The notes beneath the pieces are model-generated. The model made no database searches. It worked only from the letters and a program-made list of their open reading frames with translations, and was not told where the DNA came from. Source: Desulfococcus multivorans (GTDB lineage: Bacteria > Desulfobacterota > Desulfobacteria > Desulfobacterales > Desulfococcaceae). Taken from it: a DNA stretch of 64,000 nucleotides. This document shows, piece by piece, positions 22,502-26,800 of the stretch (position 1 is the first letter of the stretch; each line of letters starts with the position of its first letter). Where the stretch lies: positions 2,019,001 to 2,083,000 of the forward strand of contig NZ_CP015381.1 of assembly GCF_001854245.1 (NCBI RefSeq). The letters are read 5' to 3'. The position numbers and the translations under genes are program-made.

Positions 22502-23524
22502 TCAAATCGCATCCGTGCCGTTTTGGAGGATCCTGAAGATGGCGTCGACCTGCCGGCAGAGCGATACGAACTGCTCGGGATAGAGAGACTGGGCCCCGTC
22601 GCTCATCGCCTTGTCCGGTTCATGGTGGACCTCCACCATGAGGCCGTGGGCGCCTACGGCCACCGCCGCCCGGCTGAGCGGGATGACCTGGTCGCGGCGG
22701 CCTCCGGCGTGGCTGGGATCGATGATGATGGGTAGGTGGCTTTCCTTTCTCACCACGGGCACGGCCGAGACGTCCAGCGTATTCCGGCTGTGGTTGACAA
22801 AGGTGCGCACCCCCCGCTCGCAGAGAATGACCTGCGTATTTCCGCCTTCGAGGATGTATTCCGCGGCCATGAGCCATTCGTCGATGGTGGCGGCGAGGCC
22901 GCGCTTCAGGAAAATTGGCTTCCGGGACCGACCGGCCCGCTTGAGGAGGCTGAAATTCTGCATGTTCCGGGTGCCGATCTGGATGATGTCGGCATAGGCC
23001 TCCACGAGATCGAAGGTCTGATCATCCATCACCTCCGTGACGATGGGCATGCCGGTGACTTCGCGCACCCTGGCCATGATCTTGAGGCCTTCCTCGCCCA
23101 TGCCCTGGAAGGCGTAGGGAGATGTCCGGGGTTTGAAGGCGCCGCCCCGGAAGATGTGAGCGCCGGCGGCCTTGACCTTTTCGGCGATGGTGAGGGCCTG
23201 CAGCTCGCTTTCGATGGCGCAGGGGCCTGCCATGAGTGTGAGCCGGCCGTTGCCGATCGCGACATCACCAACGGTGACGATGGTGTCTTCGGGCTGGGTT
23301 TCCCGACTGACGAGCTTATAGGGGCGCGTGATGGGGACGGTGTCCTTCACGCCGGGAATTCCCAGAAACAGCGCGGCATCCACCGGCCCCTTGTTTCGAA
23401 GCACGCCGATGGCCACCCGCTCACCCCCGGGAATCGGTCGGGGGGTGTATCCTTTTTGTTCAATGATGCTGACGACATTTTCGATCTGCTCCGGTGTCGC
23501 GGTTTTTTCCATTACAATCAACAT
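22502..23524 (-). CDS. aroF: 3-deoxy-7-phosphoheptulonate (DAHP) synthase, type I-beta
   Basis: A 340-residue enzyme condensing phosphoenolpyruvate and erythrose 4-phosphate at the entry of the aromatic pathway. An N-terminal ferredoxin-like regulatory domain (about residues 1-70) precedes the TIM barrel with LMAGPCAIES, FRGGAFKPRTSPYAFQG, PIFLKRGL, ILCERGVRTF and IIDPSHAGGRRDQV, which include the PEP and metal ligands (Cys, His, Glu, Asp). GGGAGGAAA precedes the ATG. Upstream are a promoter, a Trp-rich leader peptide and a terminator, so expression is probably controlled by tryptophan through attenuation in addition to allosteric control. Confidence 0.95.
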   Translation of the reverse strand: MLIVMEKTATPEQIENVVSIIEQKGYTPRPIPGGERVAIGVLRNKGPVDAALFLGIPGVKDTVPITRPYKLVSRETQPEDTIVTVGDVAIGNGRLTLMAGPCAIESELQALTIAEKVKAAGAHIFRGGAFKPRTSPYAFQGMGEEGLKIMARVREVTGMPIVTEVMDDQTFDLVEAYADIIQIGTRNMQNFSLLKRAGRSRKPIFLKRGLAATIDEWLMAAEYILEGGNTQVILCERGVRTFVNHSRNTLDVSAVPVVRKESHLPIIIDPSHAGGRRDQVIPLSRAAVAVGAHGLMVEVHHEPDKAMSDGAQSLYPEQFVSLCRQVDAIFRILQNGTDAI

Positions 23525-23551
23525 GCCGGTTTCCTCCCTGGTTTGTCAAAG

Positions 23552-23589
23552 AAAAAAAGGGCTGCGGTGGTGTTATCCCGCAGCCCTTT
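23552..23589 (-). terminator. Intrinsic terminator of the aroF attenuator
   Basis: On the minus strand a perfect 12-bp stem (arms 23578-23589 and 23556-23567, AAAGGGCTGCGG in the 5' arm) has a 10-nt loop and runs into a seven-T tract at 23552-23558. It lies between the leader peptide and the aroF start, where it can only act as a conditional terminator. Confidence 0.85.
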
Positions 23590-23599
23590 CTATACAGAA

Positions 23600-23627
23600 G
23601 AACCGCAGGCCGGGCGGCCTGCGGTTC
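23600..23627 (-). promoter_or_regulatory. Perfect 12-bp hairpin within the aroF leader
   Basis: Arms GAACCGCAGGCC (23600-23611) and its complement (23616-23627) enclose a four-base loop. It lies between the leader-peptide stop and the terminator. Its CCGCAG segment could pair with CTGCGG of the terminator 5' arm, offering an antiterminator alternative; this competing pairing is inferred, not shown. Confidence 0.55.
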
Positions 23628-23652
23628 ATGGAATCTTATGGTACGTTCGGTG

Positions 23653-23742
23653 TCAGATGCTCGTGAATCGGTCGGCCCACCCTCGGGGGTTGTTGAGCCG
23701 CCACCACCAGTGTATTTGTCTGTCGGTCCTTATCACGATCAT
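23653..23742 (-). CDS. Trp-rich leader peptide of the aroF attenuator
   Basis: A 29-residue ORF with three consecutive Trp codons (TGGTGGTGG at 23701-23709), preceded by IleHis and followed by ArgLeuAsnAsn, and a fourth Trp eight codons after the triplet. AGGTGA lies just upstream of the ATG. Tandem Trp codons followed by hairpins and a T-tract terminator is the classic layout of ribosome-mediated attenuation: ribosome stalling when charged tRNA-Trp is scarce would favour transcription into aroF. It sits about 29 nt after the predicted transcription start. Confidence 0.82.
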   Translation of the reverse strand: MIVIRTDRQIHWWWRLNNPRGWADRFTSI

Positions 23743-23777
23743 CACTCACCTGTCTAATCATCTAAAAATGATCATCC

Positions 23778-23806
23778 TTCATATCGGATCTTTGGAACGG
23801 CGTCAA
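23778..23806 (-). promoter_or_regulatory. Sigma-70-type promoter of the aroF attenuator and gene
   Basis: On the minus strand TTGACG (23801-23806), a 17-base spacer and TATGAA (23778-23783). Transcription would begin near 23771. The -35 hexamer overlaps the stop codon region of the upstream hybrid kinase gene, so the two genes are close but aroF has its own promoter. Confidence 0.65.
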
Positions 23807-26800
23807 GGCCTTTTTGACGCCGGGTTGTTGAGGACGTTGTCAAGCACATGGCTCAGGGTCTGGAATTCAAAAGGCTTGGGCATCATTCCCACAAAGCCGT
23901 AATCCCGAAAGTTCGACAAGACCGGGTCGTCGGAATAGCCGCTGAAAACTATGGCTTTGACGCCGGGATCCATCTCCAGCAACCGCCTGACGGCTTCCTT
24001 TCCACCCATGCCGCCGGGTATGGTCATGTCGAGGATAACGGCATCATAAGGGGATTCGGATGCCATGGCCGTTTGATATTTTCCGATCACTTCGGCGCCG
24101 TCCGTGGCGAAGTCCGGCTCGTACCCCAATCTTTGCAGCATTCGACCGATTATTTTCCGGAGAGCGGCTTCATCGTCCATGATCAGAATTTTTCCCTGGT
24201 TTCTGAGCAGCGCGAAAGGGGTCTTTGAGGGGATCGATTTGTCCGAAGCCGGTAAATAGATATGGAAGGTACTCCCTTTCCCCAGTTCGGATTCGGCGGT
24301 GATGTATCCGCCGTGCTTTTTGACGACGGCGTAACTCGTGGCCAGGCCCAGGCCGCTGCCTTCATGCTTCGTGGTAAAATAGGGATCAAATATTTTGAAA
24401 AGGTGCTTTTCGGCGATACCGACGCCCTGATCCGAGATGGATATCCGGATATACCGGCCCGGCAGTACCGGCAGTCCATCCTTCTCGCCGATCATAAGAT
24501 TTTCGGCCCTGACATGAAGGATCCCGCCGTCCGGCATGGCCTGGTTGGCATTGATGACGATATTGTGAATGACCTGGTTCATCTGCCCGACGTCGATCTC
24601 GACCGGCCAGAGGTCCTTGGCGATGAAATACTCACATAATGTTTTTGAGCCGCGCAGCACAAAGGCGGCGGATTCCCGAATGAGCTCCTTGATGGAGACG
24701 GTATCCTTTACCGGCGCGCCCCCCTTGGCAAAGGTCAGCAATTGCCGGGTGAGTGTCCGGGCGCGGGTCGAGGTCGTCTCGATTTCATTGAGCAGATCAA
24801 AGAGTTCGCTCTCCGGCGCGGCGTGGTCCTTGGCCAGGGCGGTGTTTCCGATGATGGTCGTCAGAATGTTGTTGAAATCGTGCGCGATGCCGCCGGCAAG
24901 CATTCCCACGGATTCCAGTTTCTGCGTTTTTAAAAGCTCTTCCTCCATTCTTTTCCGTTCGGTGATGTCTCGCCAGATGCAGTGGTAAACAGGACGTCCC
25001 CCCACCTCGATCACCTGGGCCGTTACATGAACGTTCCTGAGTTCACCCTGTTTGGTGCGCTGGAGGGTGTCGAAATCGTCATGTCCCTTGTCCATCACAT
25101 TACGGATGCGTTTCCGGGTGTCGTCCCGGGTCTCGATGCCGTCGATGTCATGGAGCGTCAGCATCGCGAACTCCTTCCGCGAATACCCCAGCTGGCGACA
25201 GACCTGATCATTGAAGTCAATGGGCCCGGCGACATCAGGATCGATGATCACCACGCCGTCAGGCCCCTTTTCGAAAAAGGCGCGATACCGCTCCTCGCTT
25301 TCCCGTAAAGCTTCGCCGGCCCGGACCTGTTCGGTCACATCCACCAGGGTGAACACCAGTCCGGTCGTGTTCTCGTTGTCGTCTTTTACGGGGATCAGGC
25401 TCCAGTCCCAATAGGTCACCCCGCGGTCGGGTTGTCCCGGATATTCAAAGGGCCTGGCCGTCGTGAAGAAAGCGGTTCCGGTATCCACGACGCTCTGGAA
25501 TATCCGTTGGTTCTCCTCGTGAGGATAAAGATCGAAATGGTTTCTGCCCGGATAAAACGCGGCATCCCGGCGGTCCTTTTCAGCGTATGCCGAGTTGACC
25601 CATATGAAATTGAACCGGGTGTCCAGCATCGCGGCCATGATGTGGGTGTGGTCGAGAACGGCGGAAAGGATCTGATTGCGTTCCCTCAATTTCGAGGCGG
25701 TAATGCGGTGTGAGATCCCGATGGCAAGGCTTGAGGCCAACCGTTCAAACAATCGGATCTGCTTTTCGTTGAATTTATTTGGATGCCTGTCGTTGAATTG
25801 GAGCAGCCCCAGGCTCTGGTTTCCCGCCCGCAGGGGAATCAAGGCCACCGATTCGTATCCCTCCCCATTGCATCGGTTTCGTGTTCGGCTTTGCCGTTCC
25901 GCTTCAGTAGAGGATGCCAGAAGCGCCGTGGTGCTGTTGGTCCAGAAACTGCCGTTCGGAGTGAAAAAGGGCAGCGCCGGATCGAACCGGCCGTGGATGA
26001 CGTTTCCGCACATGCATTCCAGCAGGGGATTTCCCGAGCCGTCGAGGATCGGTTTTCCGTTTGCATCCAATCGGCAAAGCCGTGATTCAGCTTCGACGAA
26101 ATCCGGAAGGAACCCTCTGGTTTCAAAATAGGGGTAATCATCGCCTTTTCGAATGCGAATCCCCACGGCATCGCAGCCCGACCCATCGGCCATCAGGGTG
26201 ATGACGTTCCGAATGAGCGTTTCCAGGCTGTTGTCCTGATGCAGGGCCTGGAGCAGGTGAAGCGTGATCTCCTGTTCGGATTCATGCTGCTTCTGATGGG
26301 TGATGTCCCGGATGAATGAAAAGAAGATGCCGCCGTTTTTTTCCGAAAAGGTGGTGCTGGTTTCGACGTCGAGGATCCGGCCGCTCTTGCAGCGATGCCG
26401 CGTTTCGAACCTGCCGCGGCCGAGTGCCGTGATCTCTTTGATGCGTCGCTCTACATCCGACGCGGATTCCATCGCCTCGATCCGGTCGACAGACATCTTC
26501 AGCATCGCGTTCCGGTCGTATCCGACGAGCTTGCAGTAGGCGTCGTTGACATCGAGGATGTACCCGTCCTGATCGACGATCATGAAGCCGTCAATGGAGC
26601 TCTCGATTATCTGCCTGTAGTATTCTTCGTTCTTTTTGCGATCAGATATGTCGCTGACGTTGCCTTCGTAGAGAAGGATATGCCCGTCCGGCCCGTAAAT
26701 CGCGCGACTGCTGTCGGACAGCCAGATCTCCGAACCGTCCTTGCGTTTCGCTCTGAACTCGAAATTTTCGATTTTTCCGTTTTTCGTCATCTCCCGCTGC

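Follow-up and report, generated by a model that had tools for sequence, protein, structure and literature searches.

Comparison with relatives and RNA folding indicate that aroF of Desulfococcus multivorans, which encodes a type I-beta DAHP synthase, is probably under the control of a ribosome-mediated transcription attenuator that senses Trp and contains two serial terminators, and that its leader very probably turns aroF off when tryptophan is plentiful. The element is located on the minus strand of the analysed window, i.e. the whole stretch of 64,000 nucleotides, and comprises the following parts:

23778..23806, minus strand: putative sigma-70 promoter TTGACG-17-TATGAA, matched by eye (-35 hexamer at 23806-23801, TATGAA at 23783-23778)
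23745..23751, minus strand: AGGTGAG, putative ribosome-binding site for the leader ORF, at short spacing to the ATG, from the sequence
23653..23742, minus strand: leader ORF MIVIRTDRQIHWWWRLNNPRGWADRFTSI of 29 codons (ATG at 23742, TGA at 23653)
23701..23709, minus strand: three consecutive Trp codons, the presumed stall site, from the sequence
23695..23702, minus strand: region 1 (GGCGGCUC), the predicted partner of region 2 on ribosome-free RNA (nascent-RNA fold)
23665..23682, minus strand: region 2 (GGGUGGGCCGACCGAUUC), which holds the fourth Trp codon and is the 5' strand of the putative antiterminator (duplex tests, nascent-RNA folds)
23616..23627, minus strand: region 3 (GAACCGCAGGCC), the 5' arm of hairpin T1 (hairpin finding, duplex tests)
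23600..23611, minus strand: region 4 (GGCCTGCGGTTC), the 3' arm of T1, with 9 consecutive pairs to region 5, four of them G-U
23578..23591, minus strand: region 5, the 5' arm of hairpin T2 (hairpin and duplex analysis)
23547..23567, minus strand: region 6, the 3' arm of T2 with its U tract, the probable main terminator in D. multivorans (hairpin, U-tract measure)
23627-23600, minus strand: hairpin T1, 12 bp, -24.7 kcal/mol
23591-23554, minus strand: hairpin T2 with the U tract behind it, -24.6 kcal/mol
22502..23524, minus strand: aroF, type I-beta DAHP synthase of 340 aa (NCBIfam)

All parts named in an earlier note on this DNA, that is the promoter hexamers, the 29-codon leader with WWW and a fourth Trp, two hairpins and aroF, are present on the minus strand, and assignment of the gene product to the type I-beta class is confirmed by NCBIfam scores of 492 bits (PRK08673) and 400 bits (TIGR01361). 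A consensus promoter scan returned 0 promoters at its threshold, and the aroF promoter is weak by consensus. A histidine kinase gene ends just upstream of the leader on the same strand, and an inverted repeat, GGCGTCA AAAAGGCCT TGACGCC at 23799-23821, overlaps both the end of this gene and the -35 hexamer; it is a possible operator. The leader peptide MIVIRTDRQIHWWWRLNNPRGWADRFTSI contains four Trp residues (WWW plus one more), one Phe and no Tyr. A short ORF with consecutive Trp codons precedes the gene, the intrinsic terminators T1 and T2 lie between leader and aroF, and, by computation, an exclusive antiterminator forms when the ribosome stalls at the Trp codons, as in a Trp attenuator.

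We infer the transcription start, the actual stalling, termination, the Trp response and the relay itself, which would operate as follows. When tryptophan is plentiful, a ribosome at the leader stop codon would cover region 2; the pairings 3:4 and 5:6 would form and transcription would stop. When Trp-tRNA is scarce, a ribosome stalled on WWW would mask region 1, and region 2 would pair with region 3, blocking T1. Region 4, freed in this way, may in turn pair with region 5, which would disarm T2 and allow transcription of aroF. When the leader is not translated, 1:2 would form, as would T1 and T2. In D. multivorans, T1 probably serves mainly as a relay that leaves the decision to T2, because the U tract following T1 is degraded (GGTTCTTCTGTATA), whereas that of T2 is good. 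The anatomy, its recurrence in relatives, the 2:3 and 4:5 complementarity beyond controls and the dependence of 2:3 on ribosome position were computed.

The run of Trp codons by itself proves nothing, since TGGTGGTGG is frequent throughout the D. multivorans genome (96 sites on the plus and 95 on the minus strand; reversed-pattern control, 76 and 78). It is the position and the conservation of the run, not the run alone, that exceed chance. When leaders of relatives were compared, as the earlier note had proposed, Trp runs recurred before aroF: an ORF of 10-60 aa with at least 3 Trp in 12 residues, at most 450 nt upstream of the gene, is present in 43/71 Desulfobacterota loci (own locus included, close relatives counted separately), well above the controls (opposite strand, 2/71; shuffles, 11/355). 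Among aroF loci from other phyla, such a leader is found in 1/19, the same as on the opposite strand (1/19). The relatives were taken from 40 genomes including the own one (24 matching at E<=1e-80) and from 80 named contigs; contig repeats (L034, L040, L046, L049, L054, L065) and loci with less than 250 nt upstream (L015, L051, L067, L073) were excluded from the counts. In many Desulfobacterales and their relatives, the leaders ahead of aroF carry motifs such as WRWWW, WCWWW, WYWWW or WWWW. No window with at least 3 Trp in 12 residues occurs in the remaining 28 of the 71 upstream regions; nine of them carry a two-Trp leader together with hairpin T1 and are among the 72 leaders tested below, and no such leader was found in the others, which include L003 from the same family. 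Among the loci that lack the Trp run, aroF follows trpF in an operon in one case (L006) and trpA in another (L033). In two loci, L035 and L039, the final 130 nt ahead of aroF contain a terminator and no recognised leader ORF, which may represent an attenuator in decay.

The trpE operon of D. multivorans is preceded by a leader as well (MNKNMTMKNANWWWRHMQFGVPWVPL), followed by T1 and T2. Its trpE scores 505.8 bits against TIGR00564, slightly below the cut-off of 517.7, and the ORFs behind it were read by eye as trpG, trpD, trpC and trpF. At least 3 Trp in 12 residues occur upstream of trpE in 25/30 loci, own included, as compared to 0/30 on the opposite strand and 3/150 in shuffles. Gene order ties aroF to Trp synthesis in trpC-trpF-aroF (L006), trpB-trpA-aroF-aroB (L033) and aroF-trpE (L058).

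For duplex tests, 79 leaders (51 aroF, 28 trpE; the trpE loci L121 and L123 had no leader) were reduced to 72 by dropping L070 (near-identical to L069) and L013 (the finder gave no T1) on the aroF side, and L122, L129, L132, L136 and L145, whose arms or spacing could not be identified cleanly, on the trpE side. T1 is the best supported helix: in 61 aligned leaders, 95.5% of cells are paired, and changes on both sides occur in 10/11 pairs, amounting to 79 such cells vs 18 in shuffles. For 2:3, mean duplex energies of the 72 leaders were -16.8 kcal/mol for the own arms, -14.3 for arms swapped between loci and -12.8 for shuffled arms (p 6e-13 vs shuffled, 8e-7 vs swapped), p-values that are optimistic as the loci are related. 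The control pairings 2:4, 2:5, 2:6, 1:3, 1:6 and 4:6 did not differ from shuffles in these aroF/trpE leaders. Pairing 3:5 exceeded shuffles weakly (p 0.009) and swaps not at all, 1:2 exceeded shuffles (p 1e-7) and failed to exceed swaps (p 0.07), and 3:6, the mirror of 4:5, was above shuffles (p 4e-5) and not above swaps. In a fixed-register alignment, 2:3 displays no compensatory excess (70.8% of cells paired vs 69.2% in shuffles); support for 2:3 rests on the register-free duplex tests.

The 2:3 pairing depends on where the ribosome stands. We simulated the nascent RNA up to the 5' arm of T1 with a ribosome stalled at the last Trp codon, at the stop codon, or absent. On average over the 72 leaders, the T1 5' arm contributed -9.6 kcal/mol with the ribosome stalled, -2.4 with the ribosome at the stop codon and -4.9 without a ribosome; -5 kcal/mol or better was reached in 65/72, 10/72 and 33/72 leaders, respectively. 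The last number means that protection by 1:2 is not general. For the aroF leader of D. multivorans, the values were -9.2 or -8.5 with a stalled ribosome, -0.3 with the ribosome at the stop codon and -1.3 without a ribosome, in which case its RNA folds into the 1:2 hairpin, taking in part of the last Trp codon. The same procedure applied to E. coli K-12 trpL gave -9.3, 0.0 and 0.0, respectively. The minimum-energy fold of the full aroF leader contains T1 and T2 in every state, even with the ribosome stalled; thus, the switch must be kinetic, and the order of synthesis decides. Trp-specific, ribosome-mediated attenuation of aroF, as the earlier note had proposed it, is therefore well supported by comparison and folding, but the mechanism given there was incomplete: in the antiterminator, region 2, the 3'-terminal part of the leader ORF, pairs with the T1 5' arm. 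Likewise, both hairpins described there exist, but in most relatives the first, the 'strong hairpin', is a terminator in its own right. A pairing that had been suggested between TGGTGGTG in the Trp codon run and CACCACC in the T2 loop was not borne out, as the Trp run and the T2 3' arm paired no better than shuffles (n=45) in a test (1:6) that spans 12 bases of this arm and not the loop itself.

Two terminators in series are common among these leaders. T1 is followed by at least 7 T in the best 9 bases in 64/72 leaders, and a second terminator, T2, is present in 45/72. A poor U tract behind T1 (at most 6 T in the best 9) is found in 0/27 loci with T1 only vs 8/45 tandem loci (p 9e-6), and the aroF leader of D. 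multivorans is among these eight. In the tandem leaders, the 4:5 duplex averages -14.2 for the own arms as compared to -12.8 for swapped and -9.5 for shuffled arms (n=45; p 1e-11 vs shuffled, 5e-3 vs swapped); thus, among the alternative stems compared across relatives, both 2:3 and 4:5 exceed their controls. Pairing 4:5 is stronger than its mirror 3:6 in 40/45 aroF/trpE leaders and in 37/39 Phe/Tyr-type leaders, a separate set described below. An uninterrupted helix of at least 8 bp occurs for 4:5 in 33/45 vs 4/45 for 3:6 in the former, where the 4:5 helices contain 2.1 G-U pairs on average, and in 28/39 vs 12/39 in the latter. In the D. multivorans aroF leader, the nine consecutive 4:5 pairs compare with three for 3:6. 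Here, the weak point of the relay is that 3:5 (-15.5) and 4:6 (-13.8) are predicted to be stronger than 4:5 (-11.3).

Complementarity of arms 4 and 5 could also be a by-product of copying T1, in which case classic four-arm Trp attenuation would operate at T1 alone and T2 would be a leaky back-up. We consider this unlikely. The 27/72 leaders with T1 only, and the resemblance of the 5' arms of T1 and T2 (GGACCGTGG, AGGGCCGTGG), speak in its favour, but copying predicts 4:5 and 3:6 to be equally good, whereas 4:5 is far better, which argues for the relay. Moreover, it is T1 that has the poor U tract in D. multivorans and T2 the good one, and a T2 escaping regulation would block aroF and keep the gene silent, so that something must disarm it.

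Two further explanations dispense with the switch at the terminators. The leader might act after transcription, through translational coupling or through its RNA or peptide in trans, with the terminators merely ending the leader RNA. Action in trans has been published for a Trp leader peptide of Sinorhizobium (in the part of PMC7298713 covered), but the conserved cis pairing 2:3 and its dependence on ribosome position make such a role very improbable here. Even less credible is the idea that T1 and T2 are ordinary terminators serving the upstream histidine kinase gene and that the Trp run arose by chance: the frequency of TGGTGGTGG in the genome and the position and strand of the kinase gene would fit, yet the element recurs before both aroF and trpE despite differing ORF layouts around them. 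We therefore retain the Trp-sensing attenuator with two serial terminators.

The earlier note had placed Trp in charge of entry to the whole aromatic pathway. This does not hold, as the genome encodes a second DAHP synthase, of type I-alpha (L187:200-1541; genome C1:2206099-2207440, plus strand; 475 bits to TIGR00034), with a leader of the same kind, MNPYAGSVYYFWFYFYGTARLPGVR (genome positions 2206123-2206239), which is rich in Tyr and Phe (YYFWFYFY) and followed by T1 and T2. Thus, the genome divides pathway entry between an isoenzyme with a Trp leader and one with a Tyr/Phe leader. The assumption that aroF is the sole DAHP synthase gene was given up when a covariance-model match led to the type I-alpha gene. 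A 33%-identical match to aroF (L002) was rejected as a DAHP synthase, being a KDO8P synthase by TIGR01362, and no type II DAHP synthase was found in the D. multivorans genome at E<=0.001. Suspected stops inside type I-alpha genes were dismissed, with none in frame in the four checked. The aroH enzyme of E. coli belongs to the type I-alpha class.

The covariance model, R1, was built from 61 leaders (D. multivorans aroF, 40 other aroF, 20 trpE). It finds the D. multivorans aroF leader, itself among the 61, as a full-length match of 68.6 bits (E 1.6e-14). In the own genome, R1 marks the aroF and trpE leaders, which are part of the model, and a third full-length match of 30.7 bits outside the model, which precedes the type I-alpha gene; the next match has an E of 0.06. 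Matches were obtained in 175/192 class-level genomes (E<=0.01), all of the same order or family and some of them contributors of model sequences, and in 78/297 phylum-level genomes (E<=1e-5), 68 of which lie outside the order.

The type I-alpha leader of D. multivorans is one of many that are tuned to other aromatic codons. Type I-alpha and ADTH synthase loci were taken as the best 30 of 48 and the best 30 of 61 positive genomes, respectively, out of 117. In these best-scoring sets, at least 6 Phe/Tyr/Trp in 12 residues were found in 28/30 type I-alpha upstream regions (opposite strand 2/30, shuffles 8/150) and in 29/30 ADTH synthase loci (L257-L286; opposite strand 3/30, shuffles 10/150), with maxima of 10/12 and 11/12 residues, respectively, whereas at least 3 Trp in 12 occurred in 2/30 and 0/30. 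The ADTH synthase leaders of this best-30-of-61 set contain 6 to 11 aromatic residues per 12, and many have tandem terminators. Leaders of DAHPS-prephenate dehydratase fusions carry at least 5 Phe in 12 in 6/8 cases (opposite strand 0/8, shuffles 3/40), and an ACT domain is present in three of four fusions scanned; fusion genes behind Phe-run leaders such as FFIFRRFFFSFRSVHPVV are seen in L024, L027, L028, L030 and L031, with the fusion scanned in L024, L030 and L031. Both synonymous codons are used in 57 Phe/Tyr windows (TTT 164, TTC 24, TAT 199, TAC 48), and aromatic codons are dense in the reading frame only (8.2 per 12 codons vs 2.4 and 2.9 in the other frames, in windows chosen for in-frame density), which together point to selection on the peptide.

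The same architecture recurs in this separate set, of whose 68 candidate loci (30 type I-alpha, 30 ADTH, 8 fusion) 62 were used, leaving out L229, L248, L268, L023, L026 and L029. Pairing 2:3 exceeded shuffles (p 9e-12) and swaps (p 1.5e-3; n=62), as did 4:5 (p 2e-10 and 3e-5, respectively; n=39). Among the controls, 2:4 and 3:5 were weakly above shuffles (p 0.016 and 0.001) and not above swaps (0.34 and 0.94), and 4:6 was worse than shuffles. On balance, the evidence leans slightly towards a general scheme in which Desulfobacteria regulate aromatic amino acid synthesis, at its entry as well as at its branch points, by dispersed relay attenuators of one leader architecture, often with two serial terminators, whose specificity is set by the codons of the leader alone. 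In this scheme, a stalled ribosome would flip 2:3 and free arm 4, which would disarm the second terminator; Trp runs would act on trpE, trpD and type I-beta genes, Phe runs on the DAHPS-prephenate dehydratase fusion, and type I-alpha DAHP synthase would come under Phe/Tyr runs, as would ADTH synthase, the entry to the alternative pathway.

This leader family, which is widespread in sulfate-reducing bacteria, has apparently not been described so far. Rfam yielded 0 matches of any family in the 64-kb window at gathering score, which excludes a match to Trp_leader, T-box or another riboswitch, and none for L001 and L116 at E up to 0.5. In nine related loci, the only matches were two below threshold, mir-6511 (L187) and anti-hemB near the L030 leader (29.8 bits vs a gathering score of 49.5). 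Rfam Trp_leader, RF00513, represents the E. coli trpL attenuator (PMC2659441 and PMC4046766, in the parts covered). The D. multivorans leader resembles trpL in its Trp codon run, in the alternative pairings 1:2, 2:3 and 3:4, in the dependence of 2:3 on ribosome position and in nearly identical computed energies. Unlike trpL, it has two serial terminators with 4:5 complementarity, controls a DAHP synthase, holds region 2 inside the leader ORF and gives no Rfam match at gathering score.

Attenuation of DAHP synthase genes is not new as a kind. In Corynebacterium glutamicum, aroF is subject to ribosome-mediated attenuation through the aroR leader, which carries Phe-Tyr-Phe and responds to Phe (Neshat et al. 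2014, as cited in the portions of PMC11802643 and PMC4046766 covered); it differs from the present case in sensing Phe and not Trp and in belonging to another phylum, and a tandem relay is not described in these portions. For Shewanella aroF, the rows covered of PMC2659441 Table 3 list an 'attenuator sensing tyr-tRNA', drawn from older E. coli work; here, the suggested attenuator on a DAHP synthase gene concerns Tyr, a Tyr-sensitive enzyme and a gammaproteobacterium, with no Trp leader. Trp control of one DAHP synthase isoenzyme is known from E. coli aroH, which is controlled via the repressor protein TrpR, with no leader peptide mentioned in the sections covered of PMC5343134. Attenuators ahead of operons with aroA-I-beta have been predicted in Thermus, Thermoanaerobacter and Bacteroides (Merino site, PMC1173090 Table 7); the rows covered list them for tyrA, state no Trp leader and contain no Desulfobacterium. 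The open-licence literature, to the extent that its texts were covered, contains neither a Trp attenuator of a DAHP synthase gene nor a tandem-terminator relay nor such leaders in Desulfobacteria, and the sections covered of the paper on Desulfococcus multivorans DSM 2059 (PMC5109826) do not mention tryptophan, attenuation, the shikimate pathway, aroF, aroG or trpE. If our reading is correct, DAHP synthase would be controlled isoenzyme by isoenzyme through the choice of leader codons alone, where E. coli uses repressor proteins, and the two-terminator relay would join the known attenuator designs. It would also allow the aromatic amino acid in control of each pathway-entry enzyme, the ADTH synthase route included, to be read genome-wide in a large group of sulfate reducers, most of them uncultured.

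The genes behind the matches were read for 40 R1 loci from genomes with at least two matches: 14 precede aroF, 18 trpE, 3 trpD (TIGR01245), 3 ADTH synthase (TIGR01949), 1 a type I-alpha DAHP synthase and 1 a TRAP transporter binding protein. In G037, G113, G123, G150 and G192, two R1 matches on opposite strands stand back to back, separated by a few hundred bases. Divergent aroF and trpE genes share one contig in L018/L132 (G009), L007/L122 (G025) and L013/L141 (G037). In L188 (G004:C163), the Trp leader is located ahead of an apparent shortened trpG remnant, which is followed by trpD. The TRAP transporter binding protein gene (DctP; L200:1143-2168, minus strand) lies behind a WYWWW leader and a terminator, and is a candidate for an aromatic amino acid uptake system.
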